IMG/VR virus record: IMGVR_UViG_3300010885_061168
Location: 1-34,904 of that record
Reading direction: 5' to 3' (one strand)
Source of the DNA: a virus
Length of the DNA stretch: 34,904 nucleotides
Part shown: positions 201 through 34,885 of the stretch, in pieces
Layout: the number at the start of each line of letters is the position of its first letter
Numbering within the stretch: the stretch's first letter is position 1
Made by a program: the position numbers and the translations under genes
Notes under the pieces: model-generated
The model's database searches: none
What the model was told of the DNA's origin: nothing
The model's input: only the letters and a program-made list of their open reading frames with translations

Positions 201-2276
201 TTATCTGTTAAATTTTTTCCCTAAGGATTCAGCGATATAATTCATATAATCGTTTGAATATCCAAAAGAAGGTTTTTGATTTTCGTTAATCGTTTCGTTC
301 TCTTCTAGTTTTTGAAGTCCTACAGGAGATGCTCCTAAATTTCTAGTTGTCCAGAAGTTTCTAATTTGGTAAGGGGTATTTAATTTATAGAAGTGACTTT
401 GTGCAATAATTGATTGCTGATGTCCTTCATTTAAAGATTCCCAAACCGCTTTATATTCATCTGGCATCTCATCTATAAATTTGATGCCTGCTGCATTAGA
501 ATTCTCATCCTCTTGATTAGATTCGAATAACGGATTTTTTGGTGCCTTTAGTGTGTCGGCGAAATATCCTCCAATTTTATTTGAAGTAGCTTCAGTTTTT
601 TGAGTTTGAACTGATTCTAGTAAGCTATCGATTTTTGAAGATAAATCTGTGTAGGTACCAGCATATCCTGAGGATTTTAATCCTGAAGCTGCTGTAAGAT
701 CTACATTTTCATTTATCTTTTGTCCTGCAAATCTATCTTTTCCTTCCATAGATTCTGCTATGTATTCGGAGTATTCAATAGATTTACCAAGTTTTTCTGC
801 TAAGTACTCTGTGTATTCGATTCCGTTATTTAGGTTTTCCCCTAGATATTCAGAATACTCTACGTTATTGTTAACGTTTTCTGCGATGTGCTCAGAGTAA
901 GCTATATTATTATTTAAATTTTCTGCAATATGCTCAGAGTAAGAAATGTTATCGTCAACATTTTCTGCTAAGTATTCAGTATATTTAATAGTATTATCTA
1001 AATTTTCTGCTATGTATTCAGTATAAGAAATATTAGTATCTACGTTTTCTGCTAGATATTCAGAATAAGAAACATTCTGATCTAATTTTTCTGCTAAATA
1101 CTTAGAGTATTCGATATTCTTATCAACACTTTCTGCTACGTATTCCGTATAAGAAATATTCTTATCTACATTTTCCGCTAAATAATTAGCATAAGTAATA
1201 GATTTATCTAAGTTCTCTGCAAGGTATCCAGTATAAGAAATATTCTGATCCATGTTCTCTGCAAGATACTTGGAATAAGAAATATTCTTATCTACGTTTT
1301 CTGCAAGATACTTTGAATAAGAAATAGATTTATCTAAATTCTCTGCAAGATACTCGTTATATTTAATAGTACCTTCTAAAGACTCTGCAAGATACTCTGC
1401 GTATTTTTCAAGCTTAGATATTCTAAGATCGCTATCACTGTTATTAGATTCAGAAACTGGATTGCTTCTTAATCTAGACATTTCAGATTTCATTGAATCC
1501 ATTTCTTTCTTTAAAAAGACAGAATATTGGTCAAGTTCTTCTGATGTAACAAATTCATTATTTCTTTCCATAAGGCTGGTTGTTTTTTCTTTCTTGTTTA
1601 ATAATTTTTCAAATTCTTCATCATTATCAACTCTATATATCATCATTGAATCCTGATTTTTTAAACCTAGGCTTTCATTTAGACATTCTAGATGATTTAC
1701 TATACTATTATTTTTAATTTTTGAGTATTCTGAATGGCTATAACCACAGCTTTCGTAAACTCTTTCAAGTTGCGCATTCTTAAATCCTGGATCTGCAACT
1801 AAGTCGTAAGTAAATATTTTTTTGATTTGAACTTTTTTATCTGATCCTACTGAACCAGCAGCTCTTGAAGAAATTGAAAGTGGAATGCCAGCATCAACTA
1901 AACTTTTTGCTATTCTTCCAGCTGGGGTATCTAATAATTTAACTTTTATTTTTAGAGTTCTTTCCCCTTTGTTATAATTTAAATCAGTAACTAAATGTGA
2001 AATATTTTTTAAAGAGATATCAAATTTTTCTGGGTGATCTAATTCACCTAAAAGTCTTTGTTGGCTTATCTTATCCTGTAAATAATCTAAATGAGGAAGA
2101 TATTCATTCTCTTCATATATCCTATGATTATTATTTTCTTTACCGAAAACTGCCGCTATACCTTCTAACAAATACTCGTCATTAGAATTTTTTTTAGATT
2201 CTAATATACTAGATTGTTTTTCCAGTATGAAAACGAAATCTTCATTTAAAGACTTTAATCCTTTCATCTTATTCAT
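201..2276 (-). CDS. 21: Prohead protease (gp21-like) fused to a repeat-built scaffold (gp22-like), 691 aa
   Basis: Residues 1-180 match the T4 gp21 prohead protease family: LLGELDHPEKF with the likely catalytic His at 81, and IPLSISSRAAGSVG with the likely catalytic Ser at 136 or 137. The third triad residue is uncertain. Residues 181-290 are a charged linker. Residues 292-515 are 16 tandem copies of a 14-residue unit (consensus Y-s-e-Y-L-A-E-N-l-D-k-n-I-s), predicted helical or coiled-coil, as expected for an internal scaffold. Residues 516-691 are non-repetitive, but a stray unit (YMNYIAESLGKKF) ends the protein at 677-689. In T4 the protease and scaffold are separate genes 21 and 22; here one unbroken frame covers both. 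The gene is followed by gp23, as in T4. A methionine pair at 211-212 could start a free scaffold. The start ATG has an AT-rich leader containing a GATATATA motif. The protease call is strong; the scaffold role is inferred from position and repeats. Confidence 0.85.
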   Translation of the reverse strand: MNKMKGLKSLNEDFVFILEKQSSILESKKNSNDEYLLEGIAAVFGKENNNHRIYEENEYLPHLDYLQDKISQQRLLGELDHPEKFDISLKNISHLVTDLNYNKGERTLKIKVKLLDTPAGRIAKSLVDAGIPLSISSRAAGSVGSDKKVQIKKIFTYDLVADPGFKNAQLERVYESCGYSHSEYSKIKNNSIVNHLECLNESLGLKNQDSMMIYRVDNDEEFEKLLNKKEKTTSLMERNNEFVTSEELDQYSVFLKKEMDSMKSEMSRLRSNPVSESNNSDSDLRISKLEKYAEYLAESLEGTIKYNEYLAENLDKSISYSKYLAENVDKNISYSKYLAENMDQNISYTGYLAENLDKSITYANYLAENVDKNISYTEYVAESVDKNIEYSKYLAEKLDQNVSYSEYLAENVDTNISYTEYIAENLDNTIKYTEYLAENVDDNISYSEHIAENLNNNIAYSEHIAENVNNNVEYSEYLGENLNNGIEYTEYLAEKLGKSIEYSEYIAESMEGKDRFAGQKINENVDLTAASGLKSSGYAGTYTDLSSKIDSLLESVQTQKTEATSNKIGGYFADTLKAPKNPLFESNQEDENSNAAGIKFIDEMPDEYKAVWESLNEGHQQSIIAQSHFYKLNTPYQIRNFWTTRNLGASPVGLQKLEENETINENQKPSFGYSNDYMNYIAESLGKKFNR
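732..1403 (-). repeat. 16 in-frame tandem repeats of 42 bp (14 residues) inside the protease-scaffold gene
   Basis: Sixteen consecutive 14-residue units cover residues 292-515 with no gaps. The core Y-x-x-Y-[LIV]-[AG]-E-[NSK] is nearly invariant, and the [LVN]-[DN]-x-x-[IV] half varies moderately. The DNA copies have diverged, so the array is old enough to be under protein-level selection. A further isolated copy lies at 204-248, at the C-terminus of the same protein. Confidence 0.95.
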
Positions 2277-10665: not shown

Positions 10666-11547
10666 ATGGGAGAATATTACGTCTACGCTTATTTAGATCC
10701 GGAGAAAGTAGGATTATTTGAATATGGGGGATTCTCATTTGGATACGAGCCTTTTTACATAGGTAAAGGCAAAGGTAAAAGATGCCTAAGAGGATTAAAA
10801 GACTCAGGAAATAAGATTAAAAAAGGTAAGATAGAAAAAATATATTCGAGAGGCCATGAACCCCTTATAGTAAAGATAAAATCCGGACTAAATGAAAATG
10901 AAGCATTTGATCTAGAAATTTCATTAGTAGAAGAGATAGGAAGAATTATTTTGAAAAATGGACCACTGGTCAACATATCAGACGGAGGGATTGGAACAAA
11001 GGGGAGAAAGGATACGGAAAAAGATACCGAAAGAAAGAAAAAATTTAAACACTCCGAAGAATGGAAAAAAGTTCTATCTAAACCAGTACTTCAATTTACA
11101 TTAGATGGAGAATTTCTGGGTGAATATTCCTCGGTAAAAGAGGCATCACAAAAAACAGGAACGATTAAACAAAATATTTCATCTAACCTTAGAGGTAAAT
11201 ATAAAAGTGCCGGGGGATTTATTTGGAAATATAAAGACCCTTCTCTTTTGTTGCAGGGACATCTAAGTAAACCATTTGAGATGCCAAAGCATTCAGAAGA
11301 AACAAAAAAGAAAATGTCTTTTTCTGCAAAGAAAGGGGAAGAACATCACATGAAAAAAAAGAAGGGCGGTAATAATCCAAGGGCTAAAAAAATAGCCCAA
11401 AAAAATTTAGAAGGAGAAATAATAAAAATATGGGACAGCATGTCAGACATCAAAAGGGAATTGGGTTTTACCCCTTCCAATATCTGCAGATGCTGTCAGG
11501 GATCCGTTAAGAGAATAGGAGGATTTAAATGGGAATACTCAAACTAG
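10666..11547 (+). CDS. GIY-YIG homing endonuclease with NUMOD1-type repeats, 293 aa
   Basis: The N-terminal domain has YYVYAYLDP (4-12, the GIY strand), PFYIGKGKGKR (the YIG strand with its following basic residues) and EAFDLEISLVEEIGR with the likely catalytic glutamate, then NISDGGIG. Two modules resembling NUMOD1 DNA-binding repeats follow: QFTLDGEFLGEYSSVKEAS with GGFIWKY, and KNLEGEIIKIWDSMSDIKRE with GGFKWEY. Basic linkers join them. It would cut a target DNA site to spread its own gene. It is one of only two plus-strand genes and sits between the guanylate-kinase-like and RNase H genes without disrupting either. I see no intron. It is probably a free-standing mobile gene. Confidence 0.88.
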   Translation: MGEYYVYAYLDPEKVGLFEYGGFSFGYEPFYIGKGKGKRCLRGLKDSGNKIKKGKIEKIYSRGHEPLIVKIKSGLNENEAFDLEISLVEEIGRIILKNGPLVNISDGGIGTKGRKDTEKDTERKKKFKHSEEWKKVLSKPVLQFTLDGEFLGEYSSVKEASQKTGTIKQNISSNLRGKYKSAGGFIWKYKDPSLLLQGHLSKPFEMPKHSEETKKKMSFSAKKGEEHHMKKKKGGNNPRAKKIAQKNLEGEIIKIWDSMSDIKRELGFTPSNICRCCQGSVKRIGGFKWEYSN

Positions 11548-13089: not shown

Positions 13090-14712
13090 TTATATAGTAA
13101 CTGATGGAGTTTCTTCTCCTTCAGGAGCTGCTGCTCCACCTTCTGCTGCCCCACCTTCTTTAGCTGCTTTTCCTGCTTCTTTTTCTTCTCTTTTTTTATA
13201 CTCCTCGTTAGTTTTGGCTTGATCTGGGGTTATACCTAAGTATCTATTTATAAGGAATTCTTTGTCAAAATAAGGGGTTTCGGTTTCCCCTATCTTCATT
13301 TTTATTTCTCCCAGGCCATTCACAAATTCTATCCTTTTAGTGAATCCTCCCATTTGGATCATTTCCTCTAATTCGCTTTCCCTGTAGTAATTTAGTCCTA
13401 ATTTACTTTTAAAATTTCTATCTTTTGCTAATTCAGGATGGTCTAGACACATTTGGATATAAAGAGGTTTTACCAATATCTCTTGGAATATAGATCTAAG
13501 TCTTCTTAAAAACTTTTCGAATCTAATTTCATCTCTTTGCATTTGATCTACCCCCGTTTGATAGTTTATAGGAGCAGAGGATCTAGAAGAAAATCTTGCA
13601 TAAGGTATCTTAGAATCCATCTTTAACTTATTAAAGAAATAAAGAACATTGTCCATTATATTAAAATCCGGTCCACTTGGGTTTAAAGATGATATATCAG
13701 GGGTCTGTCCGTCTTTTTCAGGAAATAGATAATTCTTATAAAATTGAACTTTAGGCTTTCCGTTTATTGTTAATTCACCAGAATTATCATTTATTGAAAT
13801 ATCTTCTTTATAGTTAGACATTATCTGTCCTAGAGTTTGTAATGCTTTCTGTTGGGATTGGGTTCCTGTTGGAATTACAAATTTAAGTCTATAAGAAGCA
13901 TTCATAACATTCCATATAATTCTGGTGTTCTCCATTATTTTTAGAATGTTATAAGATCTTATTAGTCTTTCAGCATAGCTAACTCGGGAAACCGAATTTC
14001 CTTTAGCATAAGAAATGTATATGATCTGTTCATTAGTAAGTCTTCTAGACATCTGAGGATTAGTTGGGTATTGTATCCAGAATTGTTGATATTCTTCCTC
14101 GCTTATTTTTTCAACTACCGGTTGAAGAGATGTGGGATCTAGTTCTTTAAATCCTATTATTTCTTTCCCCTTATTATCATAGATTATTTCAAATGCTAAA
14201 AATCCATCAATTAGGAGTTGTCTAAAATATTGCCACCCCAGATTAGAATTTTGGAATCCAAATACATTATAAAGTCTATTATAATGGTCAGTTATTTTAT
14301 CTAGTATCTTATCTTTAAGATCTATATTTAAAGTAGATGCGGTAGCAAAGAAATTTCTATCGTCATAACTTATAGATTCGTCACAAACAGTATCTAGTAT
14401 AAATTCTATTTCGCCATTAAGTGAAAACTTTCTTAAGAATTTTCTTTTCTCCAAATAATCTCTATCAAAATAAGCAATGTATTTTCTTATCTTAACATCT
14501 TGATGTGAAAGTAGCCATTTAAAAGCATCGTCTTGGGTAAACCCAGTACCTTCTGAATTAAAGAAAGAACTTTCTGTCTTACCTATAGCTTGAGAATTTC
14601 GTACAACCATATCATCATATTTCATACCGAAACTAGATATTTTTCCGAGATTCCTCATTATATTCCCAAAAGCTGATCTATTGGGTTGCTGGTAATCTAA
14701 AAATCCTGCCAT
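13090..14712 (-). CDS. 20: Portal protein gp20-like, second copy, 540 aa
   Basis: Portal vertex protein, a 12-subunit ring through which DNA enters and leaves the head. Typical T4-like portal segments are present: SFGMKYDDMVVRNSQAIG (27-44), FILDTVCDESISYD, GWQYFRQLLIDGFLAFEI, ELDPTSLQPV, IIYISYAKGNSVSRVSYAER, and a helical region up to LNYYRESELEEM. The C-terminus is Ala/Gly/Glu-rich and ends EETPSVTI. The length is close to T4 gp20 (524). It lies 9 bases downstream of a paralogue of exactly equal length, with the same start (MAGF) and end. Both copies keep all conserved blocks, so neither looks like a pseudogene. Confidence 0.9.
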   Translation of the reverse strand: MAGFLDYQQPNRSAFGNIMRNLGKISSFGMKYDDMVVRNSQAIGKTESSFFNSEGTGFTQDDAFKWLLSHQDVKIRKYIAYFDRDYLEKRKFLRKFSLNGEIEFILDTVCDESISYDDRNFFATASTLNIDLKDKILDKITDHYNRLYNVFGFQNSNLGWQYFRQLLIDGFLAFEIIYDNKGKEIIGFKELDPTSLQPVVEKISEEEYQQFWIQYPTNPQMSRRLTNEQIIYISYAKGNSVSRVSYAERLIRSYNILKIMENTRIIWNVMNASYRLKFVIPTGTQSQQKALQTLGQIMSNYKEDISINDNSGELTINGKPKVQFYKNYLFPEKDGQTPDISSLNPSGPDFNIMDNVLYFFNKLKMDSKIPYARFSSRSSAPINYQTGVDQMQRDEIRFEKFLRRLRSIFQEILVKPLYIQMCLDHPELAKDRNFKSKLGLNYYRESELEEMIQMGGFTKRIEFVNGLGEIKMKIGETETPYFDKEFLINRYLGITPDQAKTNEEYKKREEKEAGKAAKEGGAAEGGAAAPEGEETPSVTI

Positions 14713-14721
14713 TTCTTTTTA

Positions 14722-16344
14722 TTATATTGTTACTGCTGGGGTTTCTTCTCCTTCGGCAGCTCCTGCTTCTCCTTCTTTTCCACCTTCTTTTTTAGCTTCT
14801 TTTTCTTTTTCTTTTTTCTTTCTCTCTTTTATTTCCTCGTTTGCCTTAAGATCTTTCTTATCGATACCCAGGAAATTTTCAACAAGGAAAGGAACAGAAA
14901 AATAAGGCTTTTCGTCATCACCCATTAACCCAACCATAGCGGTAACGGATTCTTTTCTTTTGTTTATAACATCTATCTCCTGGTTTACTTTAAAAGGATT
15001 ATCAGAGAAAAAATTTAATCCTAGCTGTGATTTAAAAATAAAGTCTTTTTCTAATTCTTTGTGTTTCTTTACTATCTGAACCCAAAGGGGTTTAATTAAA
15101 ATATCTTGGAATACTGTTCTTAATCTCTCTATGAATTTAAAAAATCTTATCTCGTCTTTATCAAACCCTTCCCCGACATTCGAGTACGTGGCCGAGCTAC
15201 CACCCTCGGGGGTAGAAAATCTAGAAGGTGGTATTTTACTTTCCTGTATATACCTATCAAAGAAATAATTCAATGGAGTTGAATCGTTTAAATTAGGTCC
15301 TTCACTATTTATAGGTTCTATAGTAGGAGTTCCCCCCTGACCTGATGGCATTAAATAATTTTTATAAAATTGAATTTTAGGCTTTCCGTCTATCATCAAT
15401 TCCCCTGTTTGATCATTTAAATCAAAATCCTCTTTATAAATACTCATTAATTCCCCTAGAGTCTGCATCCCTTTTTGCATAGATTTAGTACCTACAGGAA
15501 CAGTCATTTTCATTCTGAACTGAGAATTCATCACCGACCATATTACTCTAGTGTATTCTATTGTTCTTAGAATATTAAAAGGTCTTATTAATCTCTCTAT
15601 GTAGCTTATTCTAGATATTGAATTTCCTTTAGCGTAGGAAATGTATATTATTTGGGGTTCATAAAGTATTCTTCTTTTTTTAGGGTCCTGAGGATATTGG
15701 GTCCATGTACTAAGAAAAGTTCCATCCGGCTGTTTTTCTACACTGGGAACTAAAGTAACAGGATCCAGTTCTTTAAATCCTATTATGTTTTTACCATCAT
15801 CATCAAATATGATCTCAAATGATAAAAATCCATCAACCAAAAATTGTCTAAAATATTGCCATCCTGTTATATCATCCGAAAATCCCCATATGTCATATAT
15901 CTTTTTATATGCATCATAGAGATCATCCTTGAATTTTTCATTTATGTCGGTAAGATCTAAAAAAGCAGGATAAGCAAAATAATTTGCTGGATCGTACGAA
16001 ATAGATTCATCGCATATTGTATCTAATACCCATTCTATTTCAGGATTTAAAGAAAACTTTCTTAAATAATCTCTCTTTCCTTTATAATCCTTATCAAAAT
16101 ATGTGATGTATTGTTTTGTATTTATGTCCTGTTTAGCTAAAGCCCAAGATAGATTTTCATCTTCTTTTCCTGCATGCCCATCCTTGTTTAAAAAACTAGC
16201 CTCGGTTACCCCTACCGCTTGGGAGTTTCTTACGACCATGTCATCGTATTTCATACCAAAAGTACTGAGATTTTTTACGGATTGTCTTATCCGATCTACT
16301 GCTCCGGGTGATGAAGGTTTATTATTTTCTACGAATCCTGCCAT
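14722..16344 (-). CDS. 20: Portal protein gp20-like, first copy, 540 aa
   Basis: A paralogue of the next gene and likewise a complete T4-like portal protein. Shared blocks include SFGMKYDDMVVRNSQAVG, WVLDTICDESISYDP, GWQYFRQFLVDGFLSFEI, ELDPVTLVPSVE, IIYISYAKGNSISRISYIER and KIQFYKNYLMPSGQ. The C-terminus ends EETPAVTI after a Lys/Glu/Ala/Gly-rich tail. It differs from the second copy in several regions, including the loop at about 350-385 (SKIPPSRFSTPEGGSSATYS here). The ATG follows a leader without a Shine-Dalgarno, 30 bases after the unknown 198-residue gene. Which copy builds the main ring, or whether the two mix, cannot be told from sequence. Confidence 0.9.
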   Translation of the reverse strand: MAGFVENNKPSSPGAVDRIRQSVKNLSTFGMKYDDMVVRNSQAVGVTEASFLNKDGHAGKEDENLSWALAKQDINTKQYITYFDKDYKGKRDYLRKFSLNPEIEWVLDTICDESISYDPANYFAYPAFLDLTDINEKFKDDLYDAYKKIYDIWGFSDDITGWQYFRQFLVDGFLSFEIIFDDDGKNIIGFKELDPVTLVPSVEKQPDGTFLSTWTQYPQDPKKRRILYEPQIIYISYAKGNSISRISYIERLIRPFNILRTIEYTRVIWSVMNSQFRMKMTVPVGTKSMQKGMQTLGELMSIYKEDFDLNDQTGELMIDGKPKIQFYKNYLMPSGQGGTPTIEPINSEGPNLNDSTPLNYFFDRYIQESKIPPSRFSTPEGGSSATYSNVGEGFDKDEIRFFKFIERLRTVFQDILIKPLWVQIVKKHKELEKDFIFKSQLGLNFFSDNPFKVNQEIDVINKRKESVTAMVGLMGDDEKPYFSVPFLVENFLGIDKKDLKANEEIKERKKKEKEKEAKKEGGKEGEAGAAEGEETPAVTI

Positions 16345-16374: not shown

Positions 16375-16971
16375 CTATTTTAATTTCAATTTATATTCTT
16401 TATATATCCCAAATGAACTTAGGCCCTCGAACGTATTCAATTCTAAGTAAGGAATTCTTACCCAATCTTCAGATTTTATCTCTTTTATATTGGAAAAATA
16501 ATCATATTTAAACCCAAAAATAGATTCTTTATATCCCGTTTTATTAAGGATAGAATCTAAATTAGTAGGGGAAAGAGGTAAAGGCGCTTTTGTTTTTTTA
16601 GGGTCAGTATTTTTGGATATCTGGTCTTCGAATTGATCCCAGATCCGACTTAATACGACTTCTCTTATTTCATAGGGTATAGTAGAAAGATCTATCCCGT
16701 AAAGGATATTCTCATTTGATAAGGTTTTTGAATAATTAAGAAAAAGAAAAATAGGATTTCTATTTATAAATTTTCTTTTTTCTGTAATTTTACTAGGGGT
16801 TTTGTATTGAAAAGAATAGATCATTCCGGGAACAAAAGGTAAAGCAAAAGAAGAATATTTACTATTTTCTAAGTAATTTTTAGAAAAAAAATCATTAGCT
16901 TCTTTTATTCTATCCTGCTGGGTTTTATATTCAGTAGAATATTCTTTTATCAATTCGCCAAAACTTTTCAT
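16375..16971 (-). CDS. Unknown T4-like structural or accessory protein, 198 aa
   Basis: I do not recognise a family with confidence. The opening MKSFGELIKEYSTEY looks like a capsid-targeting peptide (a possible cut after E10). Residues 46-98 (PGMIYSFQYKTP, NRNPIFLFLNYSK, ILYGIDLSTIPYEIR) recall a conserved hypothetical protein found near head and baseplate genes in other T4-like phages, but I cannot name it. The ATG overlaps the gp4-like stop by 4 bases, so it is coupled to head completion, and it is followed by the two portal genes. A head or neck role is the best contextual guess. Confidence 0.75.
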   Translation of the reverse strand: MKSFGELIKEYSTEYKTQQDRIKEANDFFSKNYLENSKYSSFALPFVPGMIYSFQYKTPSKITEKRKFINRNPIFLFLNYSKTLSNENILYGIDLSTIPYEIREVVLSRIWDQFEDQISKNTDPKKTKAPLPLSPTNLDSILNKTGYKESIFGFKYDYFSNIKEIKSEDWVRIPYLELNTFEGLSSFGIYKEYKLKLK

Positions 16972-17453
16972 TTACCTTTGAATAAAAAATTCTCATTTAT
17001 GACTCCGAACCTGAATCCTCTTTGTTCTGCCCATAGTTTAGCTGCTTTGAATTTCGATTGGTTGGTTATCCAGATTTGCATATTCCTATTATATGCTTTT
17101 AATTTTGGGGTTGTCATATTCCCTTCATAAACTGGTTTTTGGGTTTGCTTCTCCGGTTTTATTTCTATTATCCATTCCTGCTCACTCCCATCATTGTTTA
17201 AAGTCTTCATATAAAAATCAACATTATATTGATGTTCTTTTTTATCTAAAGGATTGTAGTAGGGGATCTTTAGGGGCTCGGAGCTCCACTTTAGTATGGA
17301 TTCATTGGTATCACAGTAAATACAAAATCTTTGCTCCCACGACGACCTAAATATGATATTATGGATATCCCCTATGTATTTATCGGGATTCCTCGGTACG
17401 TATTTTCCCGATTTATACTCCCCATTGGGTTTTACTTTTTTTATGTCAACCAT
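16968..17453 (-). CDS. 4: Head completion protein gp4-like (TnsA-endonuclease-like fold), 161 aa
   Basis: T4 gp4 (also called gp50) completes the filled head before tail joining. The block GKYVPRNPDKYIGDIHNIIF (17-36), then RSSWEQRFCIYCDTNESILKW, SSEPLKIPYYNPLDKKEH and DFYMKTLNNDG fit the conserved core of gp4 as I remember it. WIIEIKPEKQTQKP supplies the E-x-K of a PD-(D/E)XK nuclease-like fold. The length agrees with T4 gp4 (150). It follows the gp55-like gene after 30 bases and overlaps the next gene by 4. The ATG follows ATCTAGATC with no Shine-Dalgarno. The family call is good; whether it has nuclease activity is unknown. Confidence 0.8.
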   Translation of the reverse strand: MVDIKKVKPNGEYKSGKYVPRNPDKYIGDIHNIIFRSSWEQRFCIYCDTNESILKWSSEPLKIPYYNPLDKKEHQYNVDFYMKTLNNDGSEQEWIIEIKPEKQTQKPVYEGNMTTPKLKAYNRNMQIWITNQSKFKAAKLWAEQRGFRFGVINENFLFKGK

Positions 17454-20315: not shown

Positions 20316-20801
20316 TTATCTTGCAACAAGAATTTCTAATTTAATTGTAATGTCGGAATGCGGATTACAGAATATTATCCCTCCGTCACTGTACACTGTA
20401 CCTGGCTGGGATATATTCCACCCCGCAGGCTCGGAAGAAAAATCTGTGATGTTTAATCCGCTTAAAACCATAATTTTTCCCATATTATAAATTCCTCCCT
20501 GGTATTCCCAGCTTAGGTATTTTCTGGTTTCTAAAGTGTTATCAGGGAATGTAGATTTTACCAGTATAAAAGAAACAAACCCTTCATTATCAGAGATGTC
20601 AGTTTGGCTTAACAGATAACAAGATAAAGGGGTTAGATTTATTCTAAGCTTGGAATATGATGTTATTTCTTCAAACATATCATCAAACCTTATAAATTTT
20701 TCTGGGTAGTTAGTAGTTGGGGTATCTAGAACTAAATACCCTCTGTTAAATCTAAATCCAGAAGCTTCGTCATATGGACATGTTATAGGTCTAGTTGCCA
20801 T
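20316..20801 (-). CDS. Unknown beta-rich protein, paralogue of its upstream neighbour, 161 aa
   Basis: No named family. The protein looks like an all-beta fold with alternating hydrophobic strands. The C-terminal half shares a pattern with the preceding 224-residue protein: KIMVLSGLNI versus SIMILSGSIK, GWNIS versus GWDID, GGIIFCNPHSDITIKLEILVA versus GGISFTNPTEKTVKLIILTA. The two are therefore tandem paralogues. The ATG overlaps the preceding stop by one base (TAATG), coupling their translation. A small virion decoration, neck or fibre component is possible, but no sequence feature proves it. Confidence 0.8.
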   Translation of the reverse strand: MATRPITCPYDEASGFRFNRGYLVLDTPTTNYPEKFIRFDDMFEEITSYSKLRINLTPLSCYLLSQTDISDNEGFVSFILVKSTFPDNTLETRKYLSWEYQGGIYNMGKIMVLSGLNITDFSSEPAGWNISQPGTVYSDGGIIFCNPHSDITIKLEILVAR

Positions 20802-21475
20802 TAGTTAGCTGTTAAAATTATTAATTTTACGGTCTTTTCTGTAGGATTAGTAAAAGATATTCCTCCTTCGTTTATGTCAGGATTTGAAGTATGAGCATAA
20901 TCTGAAAAAGGATCTATATCCCATCCGTGCCAAACGGATCCATCCTTTATCGATCCTGATAATATCATAATAGATCCCATTATTTTTCTAGGTGTATTCC
21001 CGTAGTCCCAGAATATCATCTTTTCATTAGGGTCTGCTTCTGGTAGGTATTCAGCTTTAACTACTACCAGGGAAACTTCTCCCTCGGTAGAATAAAAAGA
21101 AGAAGGGTCTAGATTTATTGTAGTTAAAGGGTCAATTACAACTGTTTGTTTTTGATATTCAGAGAAAGATTGTAAGGGATGGAAAAATTCTGCAAGAGAA
21201 ACTTTATCCATAGTCTCTTCTTTCCTTGTTACCGAATAATATTCTTTTATAAATCTAACTTTCGGTTGATCGTTAAATCTCCTAAAAGTTGCATCTATTC
21301 TTTTGAGATCTTTCTTTTGTAAAGCAATATTAGCATATGCAGTTAAAAATCCTCCAGTAGCACCAGACGGTTGAGGGCTTAAAGGGTATTGGGAATTCCC
21401 TCCGTTGATTTCAGAACCCTGGCTTAAAGAATTTCCTCCGTCTATATTTAATATTTCGTCATTTGGATCTGCCAT
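20801..21475 (-). CDS. Unknown beta-rich protein, 224 aa, paralogue of its downstream neighbour
   Basis: No named family. The first 45 residues are Gly/Ser/Asn/Pro-rich and probably disordered. The core from about 60 includes KVRFIKEYYSVTRKEETMDK and LAEFFHPLQSFSEYQ, and the C-terminal beta region is shared with the 161-residue neighbour (see that entry). Its ATG is 3 bases after the stop of the membrane-protein gene, and its own stop overlaps the next start by one base, so three genes appear to be one translational unit. Probably a virion protein, by context only. Confidence 0.8.
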   Translation of the reverse strand: MADPNDEILNIDGGNSLSQGSEINGGNSQYPLSPQPSGATGGFLTAYANIALQKKDLKRIDATFRRFNDQPKVRFIKEYYSVTRKEETMDKVSLAEFFHPLQSFSEYQKQTVVIDPLTTINLDPSSFYSTEGEVSLVVVKAEYLPEADPNEKMIFWDYGNTPRKIMGSIMILSGSIKDGSVWHGWDIDPFSDYAHTSNPDINEGGISFTNPTEKTVKLIILTAN

Positions 21476-28604: not shown

Positions 28605-29183
28605 TTATAAAAACGTATCTGACCAGTAGTCGCATATCCATGAAAGGGATATACTATAATTATTTGCTTGTTCATAATCTAAGTCCATTGCAGGAATAGC
28701 TTCTGAAGGAAAACACGAAGGAATAGATACTCTTCTAAAGACATCTCCTCTTTTATTAAATATAGAGATAACCATTGATCCCACATAATCTTTTTTAATA
28801 CCCATAGCTCCGGTAAGAGGATTATAGATTAAATCTGACCATTGTCTTAGAATTTTGTAAACCTCCATAGAATTGCTTTCTGGATTTAAGTTAACTTCAA
28901 ATTCCATAGATACTGTCATATCTGTAGTAGATGGTTCTCCCCCTGCATATCTTCTAGTAGCAAATTTATAGTTTTGATCTATAGTTGCGGAAGGAGAAAT
29001 ATCAACAGCTAAGCCGGAAAGACTCTTTATCCCTTGAGCTAATATACCCTCTCCTTTAAATCTCTGAGCCGCAAGAGGAATACCTGCAGGCGGATTTATA
29101 ATAACCTCAAATTGGTTAAGGTAAACAGGTTCATAGTTATTCCTAGAAGCTGTTGAGTTACTAAAATGTGGAAGTCCAGCCAT
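28605..29183 (-). CDS. 19: Tail tube protein gp19-like, second copy, 192 aa
   Basis: Subunit of the inner tail tube. T4-like gp19 features are MAGLPHFSNS at the start, YLNQFEVIINPP (20-31), KFATRRYAGGEPST (73-86), LRQWSDLIYNPLTGAMGIKK and ISLSWICDYW near the end. T4 gp19 has 163 residues. The protein is a close paralogue of the gene 13 bases upstream, with identical first ten residues and an identical LRQWSDLIYNPLTGAMG block. It has a slightly longer loop (GIPLAAQRFKGEG). It is followed by a terminator. Confidence 0.9.
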   Translation of the reverse strand: MAGLPHFSNSTASRNNYEPVYLNQFEVIINPPAGIPLAAQRFKGEGILAQGIKSLSGLAVDISPSATIDQNYKFATRRYAGGEPSTTDMTVSMEFEVNLNPESNSMEVYKILRQWSDLIYNPLTGAMGIKKDYVGSMVISIFNKRGDVFRRVSIPSCFPSEAIPAMDLDYEQANNYSISLSWICDYWSDTFL

Positions 29184-29196
29184 ATTAATTTAAAAA

Positions 29197-29751
29197 TTAT
29201 AAAAATAAATCATCCCAATAATCAACGGCAAATTCCATATCGTTAATTGTATATATTCCCTCGTCTGTGTAGTTCAATCCCATTTCAGGAAGAGCTTTTA
29301 AAGGGAAAACATCTTTACAATTAATTCTACGATAAACATCACCTTGTTTATTAAAGATAGAAATTAAAATATTTCCTGTGTAATCTTTTTTAAGACCCAT
29401 AGCTCCTGTAAGAGGATTGTAGATCAAATCTGACCATTGTCTTAGGGTTTTAAAAATATACATAGAGTTAGCATCATTTAAATTGACAGTAAATGAAATA
29501 CTAATGTTCATTGTGGTTTCAGAAGGTTTAGCTCCTGCATAGTTTCTTTTAGCAAACTTATATTTCTGGGTAGCTAATCCCGGGTTCTTATCTACAGATA
29601 AACCACTAACTTTAGTTACGTGCTCTATCAATATATTTCCTCCGCCTACACCATTGGGACAAGTTATTTGGGCCTCAAACTGGTTAAGGTAAACAGGCTC
29701 GTACTTATTTAAAGAAGCCTGAGAATTTGAGAAATGTGGTAATCCTGCCAT
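29197..29751 (-). CDS. 19: Tail tube protein gp19-like, first copy, 184 aa
   Basis: Paralogue of the next gene, with the same opening MAGLPHFSNS, then YEPVYLNQFEAQITCPNG, KFAKRNYAGAKPSE and LRQWSDLIYNPLTGAMGLKK, ending FAVDYWDDLFL. It is complete, with no sign of decay. It is divergent from the plus-strand endonuclease gene, which is inserted between it and the sheath gene; T4 order is 18-19 with no gene between. A TATTGATATATA motif lies about 57 bases upstream of the ATG. Confidence 0.9.
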   Translation of the reverse strand: MAGLPHFSNSQASLNKYEPVYLNQFEAQITCPNGVGGGNILIEHVTKVSGLSVDKNPGLATQKYKFAKRNYAGAKPSETTMNISISFTVNLNDANSMYIFKTLRQWSDLIYNPLTGAMGLKKDYTGNILISIFNKQGDVYRRINCKDVFPLKALPEMGLNYTDEGIYTINDMEFAVDYWDDLFL

Positions 29752-29807
29752 AATGTTTTTTAGTATATTTATCCGACTTTATAAAAAATCAAAAATTACA
29801 TATTTTC

Positions 29808-29817
29808 ATATATATCA
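29808..29817 (-). promoter_or_regulatory. Putative late promoter motif (TGATATATAT)
   Basis: It lies within the divergent region before the first tube gene. The longer string TATTGATATATA is shared with the site at 6301. Confidence 0.3.
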
Positions 29818-29890
29818 ATATGCTATTAAAAAAAAATATAGGAAACATATTATAAATTATGATATATATTATAAAACCAGCATAAGGAAT

Positions 29891-31483
29891 ATGAAAACTA
29901 TAGAGGATTTAAATAATTCAATTAAAAAAGGAGAAATTAAAACTAATTTTATTTCTAGATTTTTAGAAAAAAATCAAGAAATAAAAGAAATGATATTTTT
30001 AAAATCTATTGATATAGAAAAATATTATAGAAATCCAACTATTTTGCAAAGATTAAAATTTATTATAAATGAAGAAGTTATAGAATTATGCACATGCGGT
30101 GATCCTTTATTATGGAGAAATTTTACTAAAGGTTATAACAAAACTTGTGGATCTAAAAAATGCTCAACGAGAAAAAATATAGAATCAGTAAAAAAATATT
30201 ATACTGAAAAATATGGAGTAGATCATTTATTTAAAACTGATAAATTTAAAAATGATATAAAAAATACATTTAATGAAAAATATGGGGTTGATAATCCGTT
30301 TAAAAGTAAAGAAATAAAAAATAAAATAAAAGAAACTAATCTTTTAAAATTCGGGGAAACTAATTGGTTAAAGGTCCCGGAAAATAGAGAAAAAATATCA
30401 AATAAAATAATAGAAAATAATAAAATAGCCAGGAAAGAAAAAATAATAAATAATAAAATTCCTATTGAGATTATTGAATATTCAAAAAACCAAAAAGTTA
30501 TTATTAATTGTAATAAATGTAATAATAAAAGTGAATTTTCGATTTCGTTTTTCAATAAAAAAATAAAAATACAAGAAAACCCATGTTTAACATGTAATCC
30601 TTTATTAAGATCTACATCCAAAGGGGAAATCGAACTTTTCCATTTTATAGAATCTATATACAAAGGTAGTATAATAAAAAATGATAGAAAAATACTAGGG
30701 GGTAAAGAAATTGATATATATTTGCCAGATTTAATGATGGCATTTGAATTCAATGGGATTTATTATCATAGCGAAATATTTAAAGAAAAAAAAGATTGTT
30801 TATCTAAAAAAAAATTATTATCTGATAAATCTATAAATTTAATAGTAGTATGGGAAGATGATTGGGAGCAAAAAAAAGAAATAATAAAAAGTAGGATAAA
30901 ATCTTTATTGAATCAAAATAATAAAATATACGCAAGAAAATGTAAAATAATGGAAATATCAGGAAGTGTAGAAAAAAAATTTTTAATAGATAATCATATA
31001 CAAGGATATGTTCCGTCGTCTATAAAAATAGGTCTATATTATAATAGTGAATTAGTTTCGATTATGTCATTTGGATCATATAGAAAATCTTTGGGTAAAA
31101 ATAAAATAATAGGGGAATATGAATTATTAAGATTCTGTAATAAATTAGGAATTAATGTAATAGGAGGAGCATCTAAAATTTTTAAATATTTCATAAATAA
31201 ATATTTACCAAATAAAGTTTTATCATATCAAAATAATTCATGGAATACCGGTAATCTTTACGAAAAAATAGGATTTATCAAAAAAAATACAACAGATCCA
31301 AACTATTATTGGGTAAAGGGAAATTTAAGATTTAATAGATTTAATTTCAGAAAAGATAAATTAATAAAAGAAGGATATGATCCAAACAAAACAGAATCCG
31401 AAATAATGTACGGGAGAGGATATTATCGAATATGGGATATGGGAAATATAAAATGGGAATACAAAAAGCCATCAGTAAACTGA
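29891..31483 (+). CDS. Homing-endonuclease-like protein: Zn-finger/repeat region, Vsr-like nuclease, acyltransferase-like C-terminus, about 530 aa
   Basis: The likely start is ATG at 29891, which begins MKTIEDLNNSIKKG and is preceded by AAGGA, a Shine-Dalgarno-like sequence. The frame is open back to an ATG at 29753, but those 46 extra residues look random. Parts in order are a cysteine cluster (CTCGDPLLW, CGSKKC); repeats of KYGVD-type (EKYGVDHLFKTDKF, EKYGVDNPFKSKEI) probably contacting DNA; CNKCNNK and CLTC cysteines; a nuclease core GKEIDIYLPDLMMAFEFNG then IYYHSE and LIVVWEDDW, like Vsr/PD-(D/E)XK homing enzymes; and a C-terminal region (MSFGSYRK, YELLRFCNKLG, GGASKIFKYF, YEKIGF) resembling GNAT/Mom-type acyltransferase folds. 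It is a plus-strand, even more A-rich insertion between sheath and tube genes. The nuclease call is moderate; the acyltransferase-like part is tentative. Confidence 0.75.
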   Translation: MKTIEDLNNSIKKGEIKTNFISRFLEKNQEIKEMIFLKSIDIEKYYRNPTILQRLKFIINEEVIELCTCGDPLLWRNFTKGYNKTCGSKKCSTRKNIESVKKYYTEKYGVDHLFKTDKFKNDIKNTFNEKYGVDNPFKSKEIKNKIKETNLLKFGETNWLKVPENREKISNKIIENNKIARKEKIINNKIPIEIIEYSKNQKVIINCNKCNNKSEFSISFFNKKIKIQENPCLTCNPLLRSTSKGEIELFHFIESIYKGSIIKNDRKILGGKEIDIYLPDLMMAFEFNGIYYHSEIFKEKKDCLSKKKLLSDKSINLIVVWEDDWEQKKEIIKSRIKSLLNQNNKIYARKCKIMEISGSVEKKFLIDNHIQGYVPSSIKIGLYYNSELVSIMSFGSYRKSLGKNKIIGEYELLRFCNKLGINVIGGASKIFKYFINKYLPNKVLSYQNNSWNTGNLYEKIGFIKKNTTDPNYYWVKGNLRFNRFNFRKDKLIKEGYDPNKTESEIMYGRGYYRIWDMGNIKWEYKKPSVN

Positions 31484-31516: not shown

Positions 31517-34500
31517 TTAAACGAATTGGGAGAATCCTCCGGAAGCAATACCTCCAGTTCTTGTTACCGTAATTCTATTTATAAATTTCTGTATACCTCT
31601 TGCTGGTTCTATGATAACATCTATAACTCCCATATTCATATCTATGATAGCTGGGGTATTGTTAGAAGTATCCATGATAGTTTGGTAAGCGTAGATTCCT
31701 CCTCCTGATTGAACTCCATCCAAATAATTATCTACCAATGTCTTGATTTCAAGTCTAATAGAATCTTCGTTAAAATCAAATAAGTAATTAGAAAGAATAG
31801 TTTGAACATCGCTCTCTACAGAGATTAATAAATCTCTTACGTGTAAAAGGTTAAATGCTGAATTTACTGTTTGGTAAGCTGTTTGGTTACCAAATATTAC
31901 AACTCCTACCCCTGTTCTTTTTATTATAGGATTTATACCGAATGGTTCTAAGTTTCCTCTATCTTCATCTGTAAAATCATATTCTACACCTACTATAGTA
32001 CCTCCTGAAAGAACCCCTCTTTTTTGTCCTGCAACTATAGAATAAGGTTCTCCTGCTGCAAATTTTCTAACATAGTTGTTGGAAACAAATGCTGCCGGTG
32101 GTACATTTATATTTCTATTAGATTCTCTAATTGTAATATAAGGAGAGAAGAATCCGCAGAATTTAGATCCATCATCTTCATTAGGTAAACTAAATGTGTA
32201 AGATGGATTCAGAGATAGATTACCTCCATCTGCAATATATCTAATTTGTAAAGCTGGATACGGGTTAACTGCAGTAGGTGCATCTGTAAATCTAGGGTCT
32301 GTACTATTTCTAAATTGGGCAATTGAAGGTGCATTAATTAATGCCATTGCTTGCTGTCTATTTTTAGCAAGTAAACTCAATTGACGTTTAGAATTAGGTA
32401 GAATCTGTCCAGAGAAAGTATCTACGATATATCTAAAACTAATTATATCTTTAGCTGCTAATGTCTTAGCTATATTTGTATCAAACATAACATCTAAGAT
32501 CTCAGAAACTCTAGCATCTGTTCCATTAGGTCTATGTGATTCTTTCATTGTAAATCCTGAAAGGTATGTAAAATCAAAAGATGTAGTAAATTCAGGAATA
32601 GATTTAAATTTCTGTACTCTTTCAGTTCCTATTCCAGAATAGTAAAGAACTGGTCTTGCACATACAACTCTATAAACCCCAGAAGATGTAGTTGAAGCTA
32701 CTGTGACAATTTTAGCAAGTCTTTGTTGCTGATTTCCTGTAGGGGGTACACATATATCTAAATCTGTAGATACTATTAAATCACCTACAGAGAAAGGTAC
32801 ATTACCATTAGAATCCTCTACAACATTAAATGTGGTAGGACTTATCTGGGTTGCATTTACAAATTCTGATATTCCTCCTGCTTGTGAAATTATATCGATT
32901 TTTTGATCAGATACAGGTAATCCTGAATTATCAGAAGCATAAGAAGGATTTACTCCTCCTCCGAAAGTAGCTATATCTGTAATTGTAGTATTATTTCTAG
33001 AAACATTAGTAAATGCTCTAGTATAAACCAGATTGAATTGATCTCTATCTACTGTTTGTTGGAAACCTACATATTGTAAAGAAGATCCATCATCGTTTAA
33101 CCATATAAGGTCACCATCACTGATTTCATTGTATTTATTATCTACATATAGATCTGAAGCATTATATCCTACTAACACATCAGAAACCCCAAGAGGTGCA
33201 TTAGGTCCTGTCACTCCATTAGGTGTAGGTATACTTTGGATATCTAGATAATCTGAATTACCAAATTGATAAGCATCTGTGTAGAAAGGTCTATTACTTC
33301 CAGAAGCCCCTGTATTATAAGAAGTTAGATTATATGTTGGGCTTACGCTTATTCCTTGAGCTCTGTATGAAGATATATCTAAAGGATGACTAAATAATAT
33401 TCTTAATTCGCTTCCTACTTCAGTAGTTCCTGAAACTTTAAGTTTAACTAAATCTCCTTCTTGGTATTGACTAATTAATCCTCCGGTTAAACCTGCGATT
33501 CCCTGTACTACCCCTAATATAAATTTCTGATCACTTGAATCTGTTACTGTTAAAAATTCTTTTAACAAAGTTTTTTGAGAAGCTGAGGATATACCACCCG
33601 TTGCTCCTGTAGTTCCTGATGTTTGTAGATAATGTAATCCTCCATCAAATAGATTAGAATTATAAGCAGCAAAAGACTGATTAATAATACCCGCAGTTGC
33701 TCCGGTAACCCCTGGATTTAAAGTAAATAATGTACCAACTTTAGCTCCCGTAGTGAAAACTGTTGCACCTGCTGGTGTAATAGGAGGAAAAGCAGCCGAT
33801 CCAGTAACCCCAATAACATTTTGTGTGTAAAGGTAATCTGCTACTAGTACTTGGTCATAGCTTAGAAATTTAATTCTAGGTGTTGCAAGATCTCTATCTC
33901 CTGAAAGTTCATCTATTAGGTGATTTCCTACTAAATCTATTTTATATGGGCTATTACAAATATCATCAAATGCTTGTTCGTCGATAGCACAGAATAAACC
34001 TGTAGAAGGTGTATTTTGATTTACTAAAGTTTGTATATATTGGTTATTACCATTTAGATCTACAAAATCAGGTATGATACATCCAGTAACAGAAGTTACT
34101 ATATTTACATTTTGATTAGCTAAAAAATTATCAATTTGACTTTTTACAAATCCATTATTAGTAAAATAAGAGCTCCATTGAGGATCTACTGATAAAGCTT
34201 GATAATTAGTCCAGTCCCCTGATACTGCAATTACATCAATAAAATAATCTGAAATATAATCATAAGGATGCATAAAGGAAGGAACGTTATTTATTCCATA
34301 CCAATCTGCTGCAAAAACATTAAACCCTAACAAAGGAAATATAGAATCAGTAGATTTTCTGGAAATTATACTTATTGGACTTTTTCCTAAATTAGTCAGA
34401 CTAAATAGTTTACCCTGATCTGCCACACTTAACGTAGCTAAAAAATATTCAGGATCCGGAAACCAGAATCTCTCTTTATTATAATACGAAGAATATAATC

Positions 34501-34885
34501 TTGGCGTTACTACACCGTTGTATTGTTCTGTATCTAAGGAAAAGGATTTATATGTAACCTCATCTGGGGATGCACTTGATACGTCATCATTTAATCTAAG
34601 AAGATTCAACGCAAAAACAGGTCCCTGGCTCAAACAAGTAAAAACCGATCTGTGAAAGAAAGATCCCTTATTTTCTAAGGATCTATCTATATCCCCAAAT
34701 ATAGCGATCATTGTCGTAGCATCCGGTATATAAACCGGAGTATTGAAAGGACCAATATTAGAGAATCCTACAACTAGACGGATTGTTTGAGATGTTAGTA
34801 TAACATTTTGGGAAGCGTCAAACTCCAATGTATAAACTCCAGAAGCTTTAAACTGAGAGTAGTCTATTTTAATCTTACTTGCCAT
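31517..34885 (-). CDS. 18: Contractile tail sheath protein gp18-like, unusually large, 1122 aa
   Basis: Forms the contractile sheath around the tail tube. The N-terminus (SQTIRLVVGFSNIGPFNTPV, 32-51, and YIPDATTMIAIFGDID) and the C-terminus (FAAGEPYSIVAGQKRGVLSG, then NPIIKRTGVGVVIFGNQTAY, LLHVRDLLISVE and the final EPARGIQKFINRITVTRTGG) are typical of T4-like sheaths. T4 gp18 has 659 residues, and most of the excess lies in a beta- and Gly/Thr/Ser-rich central insertion of roughly residues 350-770, with recurrent G-x-T-G motifs (GVTG, GTTGATGG). The insertion probably forms surface domains on the sheath. The gene is complete; its leader is AT-only with no Shine-Dalgarno. Confidence 0.92.
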   Translation of the reverse strand: MASKIKIDYSQFKASGVYTLEFDASQNVILTSQTIRLVVGFSNIGPFNTPVYIPDATTMIAIFGDIDRSLENKGSFFHRSVFTCLSQGPVFALNLLRLNDDVSSASPDEVTYKSFSLDTEQYNGVVTPRLYSSYYNKERFWFPDPEYFLATLSVADQGKLFSLTNLGKSPISIISRKSTDSIFPLLGFNVFAADWYGINNVPSFMHPYDYISDYFIDVIAVSGDWTNYQALSVDPQWSSYFTNNGFVKSQIDNFLANQNVNIVTSVTGCIIPDFVDLNGNNQYIQTLVNQNTPSTGLFCAIDEQAFDDICNSPYKIDLVGNHLIDELSGDRDLATPRIKFLSYDQVLVADYLYTQNVIGVTGSAAFPPITPAGATVFTTGAKVGTLFTLNPGVTGATAGIINQSFAAYNSNLFDGGLHYLQTSGTTGATGGISSASQKTLLKEFLTVTDSSDQKFILGVVQGIAGLTGGLISQYQEGDLVKLKVSGTTEVGSELRILFSHPLDISSYRAQGISVSPTYNLTSYNTGASGSNRPFYTDAYQFGNSDYLDIQSIPTPNGVTGPNAPLGVSDVLVGYNASDLYVDNKYNEISDGDLIWLNDDGSSLQYVGFQQTVDRDQFNLVYTRAFTNVSRNNTTITDIATFGGGVNPSYASDNSGLPVSDQKIDIISQAGGISEFVNATQISPTTFNVVEDSNGNVPFSVGDLIVSTDLDICVPPTGNQQQRLAKIVTVASTTSSGVYRVVCARPVLYYSGIGTERVQKFKSIPEFTTSFDFTYLSGFTMKESHRPNGTDARVSEILDVMFDTNIAKTLAAKDIISFRYIVDTFSGQILPNSKRQLSLLAKNRQQAMALINAPSIAQFRNSTDPRFTDAPTAVNPYPALQIRYIADGGNLSLNPSYTFSLPNEDDGSKFCGFFSPYITIRESNRNINVPPAAFVSNNYVRKFAAGEPYSIVAGQKRGVLSGGTIVGVEYDFTDEDRGNLEPFGINPIIKRTGVGVVIFGNQTAYQTVNSAFNLLHVRDLLISVESDVQTILSNYLFDFNEDSIRLEIKTLVDNYLDGVQSGGGIYAYQTIMDTSNNTPAIIDMNMGVIDVIIEPARGIQKFINRITVTRTGGIASGGFSQFV

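Follow-up and report, generated by a model that had tools for sequence, protein, structure and literature searches.

Why should a tailed phage carry two complete portal genes side by side? In tailed phages, as in herpesviruses, the portal is described as a ring made of twelve copies of one subunit; that this twelvefold symmetry matches neither the fivefold vertex nor the sixfold tail has long been a puzzle. The window, an IMG/VR virus contig of 34,904 bases known here from metagenomic DNA alone, encodes two portal proteins in tandem (Table 1); an earlier note on this DNA had described two complete genes of 540 residues each, 9 bases apart, and this description is exact. Paired portal genes in a lineage where every described relative that was checked has one suggest rings built of two kinds of subunit.

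Table 1. Features of the window; motifs are given as amino acids.
Feature	Position	Strand	Details
Prohead protease (gp21-like)	201..2276	(-)	PHROG 207 at residues 22-228; Peptidase_S77
Homing endonuclease gene	10666..11547	(+)	
Portal A, second gene of pair	13090..14712	(-)	540 aa, T4 gp20-type; PF07230 221 bits; dN/dS 0.019
C-terminal tail of A, EGEETPSVTI	13093..13122	(-)	within- versus between-genome tail identity
B-A gap	14713..14721	(-)	9 bases, A-rich (sequence); relatives 1-23 bases
Portal B, first gene of pair	14722..16344	(-)	540 aa, T4 gp20-type; PF07230 189 bits; PHROG 213
C-terminal tail of B, EGEETPAVTI	14725..14754	(-)	matches A tail of same genome, permutation z = 7
DNA end protector-like (gp2)	16375..16971	(-)	PHROG 429, E 4e-7
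Head closure (gp4-like)	16968..17453	(-)	PHROG 218, 160 bits
Small protein	20316..20801	(-)	
Small protein	20801..21475	(-)	
Tail tube protein 1, downstream copy	28605..29183	(-)	192 aa; PHROG 3629 and 45 'tail tube'
Tail tube protein 2, upstream copy	29197..29751	(-)	184 aa; PHROG 3629 and 45 'tail tube'; directly downstream of sheath gene
Homing endonuclease gene	29753..31483	(+)	
Tail sheath	31517..34885	(-)	1122 aa; PHROG 34521, 416 bits; one per genome

Portals A and B both match the Pfam family Portal_T4 (PF07230) and PHROG 213 'portal protein' across nearly the whole profile, with scores above the Pfam cut-off of 22.9 bits, and neither reading frame contains an internal stop. The two proteins are 50% identical over 505 aa and share their termini, MAGF at the start and EGEETPxVTI at the end, in agreement with the gp20-type assignment and common motifs of the earlier note. 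The nearest solved structures by sequence are those of T4 gp20 for both portals; A matches 3ja7 in phmmer with an E-value of 2e-21, and B also has a phmmer match to T4 gp20 structures, which assigns it the gp20 fold by sequence. An AlphaFold2 model, made for A only, is of moderate confidence (pLDDT 63), and its top 13 PDB matches in Foldseek are all T4 gp20 (E from 2e-20); a model of the A-B pair, in which the TAA stops were read through as a modelling device only, is uninformative (pTM 0.32). A and B are complete gp20-type portals, located in a window with the morphogenesis neighbourhood expected of portals: gp4-like, gp2-like, prohead protease, sheath and tube genes. The short gap between them suggests co-transcription and coupled translation.

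The pair is widespread. A search of IMG/VR with A returned 80 loci; the intact B-A tandem is present in 54 of these besides the window, from many metagenomes and on contigs of up to 430 kb. Both genes are complete in 55 sequences including the window (42 distinct sequence pairs), all 55 of which keep the B-A order, the same strand and a spacing of 1-23 bases; no gene or long gap separates the copies in any locus, no broken copies of A or B were found, and in the remaining loci of the two-portal lineage one copy is cut by the contig end. Exactly two portals are present in each of 18 long records (91-430 kb), and among 17 contigs picked via the tail tube the four with the whole portal region (G023, G025, G026 and G027) all have two, a fifth being cut at its edge. 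The usual single portal gene per genome thus does not hold for this lineage, with exactly two in 22 records and no third or distant copies in the two-portal records.

Outside the lineage the rule of one portal, which the earlier note had stated for T4-like phages, is borne out. In the INPHARED collection tblastn placed A in 2,082 records at 2,084 places and B in 2,176 records at 2,178 places; among the records listed only the 735-kb LR756501 and LR756503 have a second place, and LR756501, the one checked, has one portal and a weak 62-codon fragment as its second profile match. Since places and records nearly coincide, no deposited phage is seen with a second complete copy at that sensitivity. 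One portal each is found in LR756500 (462 kb), LR756502, LR756504, LR745206, Lak-A1, PTm1 and PAU, and in 157 of 159 loci of the IMG/VR sister lineage; the other two (L284 and L354) have the single portal gene split into two ORFs, for which a sequencing frameshift or a true split is possible.

In a tree of 103 proteins all A sequences form one clade and all B sequences another, with A+B apart from the single portals (SH-aLRT 99, 100 and 99), and the branching within A largely reflects that within B. By this tree, A and B are the products of one duplication that followed the split from the single-portal relatives, and the phylogeny that the earlier note had proposed as a check finds the duplication common to a clade. 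Paired portals are a trait of one huge-phage lineage and stem from an old duplication. No isolate of the lineage was found, and a host search against bacterial genome contigs gave no useful match; a link to the freshwater Bacteroidetes phages carrying bS21 (PMC9723584) is not supported, as bS21 was present in just one of ten two-portal records tested. No duplicated or heteromeric portal was found in the open-access subset of the literature.

Both copies are under equally strong purifying selection: across 17 pairs with dS below 1, median dN/dS is 0.019 in A and 0.021 in B. B orthologues are 64-98% identical to the B of the window. These values rule out a pseudogene or relaxed copy, and relaxed selection on one gene, the genetic half of what the earlier note had set against its own proposal, is seen in neither. 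Across 861 genome pairs dN in A rises with dN in B (r = 0.96, slope 1.02), and the A-B distance correlation (r = 0.951, slope 1.04) is the highest among the portal comparisons; when neighbouring genes are set against the portals, r is 0.55-0.946 and the slopes run from 0.28 to 1.46, the best neighbour (r = 0.946, against B) falling below the A-B value by a small margin. Such a rate match would be expected of co-assembled subunits, and the equal rates and correlated distances probably in part reflect shared phylogeny. A is slightly nearer to the single portals (11 informative fixed differences, 6 A-like and 2 B-like; stem in the tree 0.56 versus 0.69).

The bodies of the two proteins have evolved without mutual conversion, as A-to-B identity is the same within a genome (0.504) and between genomes (0.500); gene conversion keeping the pair alike was considered and has no signal in the gene body, only in the C-terminal tail. 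When the portal is divided by the T4 domain boundaries (PMC4493910), A-B identity is lowest in the crown (0.27), the tunnel loop (0.29) and the channel loop (0.38) with higher values, 0.56-0.60, for wing, stem and clip. Within A and within B, conservation is highest in the stem (0.93 and 0.87); for the clip the two copies have similar values (A/A 0.85, B/B 0.86). Of the columns fixed in both copies, those where A and B differ are concentrated in the stem and channel loop (9/28 versus 17/151, Fisher p = 0.008), an enrichment that is gone at looser conservation thresholds (p = 0.07 and 0.33); it may be a hint of change where subunits pack around DNA.

The tails are matched within genomes. Over the last eight residues A and B agree at 4.8/8 positions in the same genome versus 3.6/8 across genomes (permutation z = 7). 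In L036 both portals end in GEEKPPQVTL with DNA that differs at five synonymous positions, and in L005 the tail DNA is nearly identical (29/30 bases); these two cases allow for common selection as well as for local conversion. In a 373-kb relative (G005) the ending is found only on the two portals, and both tails seem to face one common partner inside the head.

The tail-tube gene is duplicated in the same genomes, which the earlier note had not foreseen. Both tube copies match their PHROG families with E-values of 4e-8 to 6e-7, with no Pfam match for either, and are about 58% identical within a genome. Among the tandem paralogues of G005 the most similar pairs are the adjacent genes after the sheath (56%), followed by the portals (50%). 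Two tube copies are present in 10/10 two-portal genomes and one in 10/10 single-portal records where the tube was found. The tube copies fall into two clades, T1 (96/98) and the weaker T2 (88/90); dN/dS is about 0.04 for both copies, and the pair, like the portal pair, is spaced by 1-23 bases on one strand. Branch lengths in the portal and tube trees place both duplications about midway along the stem. Simple distances suggest that the portal duplication is the earlier (distance ratio 0.69, 90% range 0.58-0.82, versus 0.28, 0.17-0.41, for the tube), so the two were probably not one event; a single segmental duplication spanning portal and tube was rejected, the genes between being single and the distance ratios different. 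Two separate duplications on one stem are the best fit. The lineage therefore has old, co-retained, equally constrained and tightly coupled paralogue pairs for both ring proteins of its DNA conduit.

Other components of the particle are single. Genomes of the two-portal lineage have one full TerL and one sheath each, and the full-length major capsid gene, which lies about 15 kb from the portals in relatives, is also single. For the neck families no genome has more than one match, a weak one, and there is no sign of duplication; any mixed ring must thus be compatible with just one kind of neck. A second, short Gp23-like ORF lies far from the capsid gene in G002, G005, G009, G011, G016 (~310 aa) and G019 (369 aa); these ORFs match just the middle part of the capsid profile.

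It is proposed that the A and B proteins sit together in a single portal, a mixed dodecamer, within one virion; this reading is given an even chance. It is favoured by the equal rates, fixed order, tight spacing, matching tails, parallel tube duplication and the hint of difference in the stem. A single gp20-type gene would have been duplicated in tandem in the stem of the huge-phage lineage, and the two co-expressed paralogues would then build the mixed ring, in the simplest case with alternating subunits (6A+6B) and a symmetry that is sixfold, not twelvefold; the tube duplication on that stem would in the same way give a mixed tail tube. The fuller version, in which a heteromeric 6A+6B portal brings the symmetry down from 12 to 6 and the tail tube is mixed as well, so that the conduit is remade from paired paralogues, is a serious possibility that falls somewhat short of even. 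Co-assembly, stoichiometry and any benefit are inferred; a possible gain would be a sixfold portal that matches the sixfold tail, or a finer-tuned DNA channel and valve. The earlier note had listed a mixed ring, a special second vertex and a ring used at another stage, and the set was well chosen: the evidence leans, short of proof, to the mixed ring, and no specific support was found for the second vertex or the other stage.

The alternative that survives best, although unlikely, is that every infection uses two homomeric rings, one of A and one of B, for different jobs: one copy would serve as packaging and virion portal, and the other might, for example, initiate assembly, stack as an extra ring within the head or plug another vertex. 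Each protein is complete with all domains, clip included, and could in principle form its own ring, and the somewhat closer affinity of A to the single portals is as if A had kept the old job; a specialised copy, however, should change its rate or lose its terminase, neck or capsid surfaces, whereas the rates are equal, the clip is conserved alike in both copies, and TerL and the full-length capsid gene are single. It is distinctly unlikely that the ring became obligately mixed through a neutral ratchet, in which the interfaces of the two copies degenerated in complementary ways and no new function was gained. Other protein rings can acquire paralogue pairs by this route, and equal rates, strict co-retention and conservation of nearly all contacts would look alike under it; by itself, however, it leaves the tail tube duplication in the same lineage unexplained. 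More doubtful still is the view that A and B each build a homo-ring that can stand in for the other, possibly paired with a tail tube of its own, so that there would be two virion morphs or portals for different conditions. The duplication of portal and tube in the same genomes makes two matched sets conceivable, but the tight spacing of each pair on one strand, with nothing inserted between the copies, argues for constant co-expression, and no second copy is seen of the sheath, full-length capsid, terminase or any detectable neck protein. An assembly artefact or recent, transient duplication is refuted, with no evidence found in its favour, by the 54 other loci with both genes complete, the 50% protein divergence, the mirrored trees of two separate orthologous families and the lack of broken copies, and the earlier note was right to set an assembly repeat aside.

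The mixed portal ring would depart from T4 in a specific way. T4 gp20 (PDB 3JA7 and 6UZC, a homo-dodecamer) resembles A and B in family, domain order and best sequence and fold matches, and the neighbourhood logic of sheath, tube, portal and prohead protease is the same; T4, however, has one gp20 gene and twelve identical subunits, whereas the window lineage has two paralogues that are 50% identical. The nearest relatives, judged by portal, tube and sheath, are LR756500, the Lak megaphages, LR756502, LR756504, LR745206 and the IMG/VR sister lineage (L065-L082, L229-L387). Most of these single-portal huge phages share the long sheath (~1,000-1,300 aa) of the window lineage, and the long sheath thus predates the portal duplication; unlike that lineage, they have one portal and one tail tube.

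Duplicated tube domains are familiar from the trimeric tube of T5 pb6, the T4 gp27 hub trimer and the tube paralogues of contractile injection systems, where they give pseudo-sixfold rings or position-specific tube proteins; to our knowledge none of these concerns a portal or couples portal and tube duplication. A head protein has been duplicated into two co-assembled, specialised subunits in T4 gp23 and gp24, which are shell proteins at different lattice positions and not a portal ring. A lineage with both portal and tail tube as ancient paralogous pairs is a natural experiment: should its rings be mixed, their symmetry would be under genetic control, and either kind of subunit could be changed without the other. 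Paired portals with paired tubes also serve as a marker for a widespread clade of huge phages.

Several other genes of the window deserve mention. The prohead protease domain is fused to a long repetitive C-terminal region of YxEYLAENxDxNI type, perhaps a built-in scaffold. The two homing endonuclease genes (GIY-YIG with NUMOD motifs; HNH/Hef-like) are on the strand opposite to the late genes, and one sits between the tube and sheath genes; they are without counterpart at these positions in the 373-kb relative and so look mobile. The two adjacent small proteins have no family match and similar C-terminal parts (~32% over 97 residues between relatives); they are possible duplicated virion decoration proteins.
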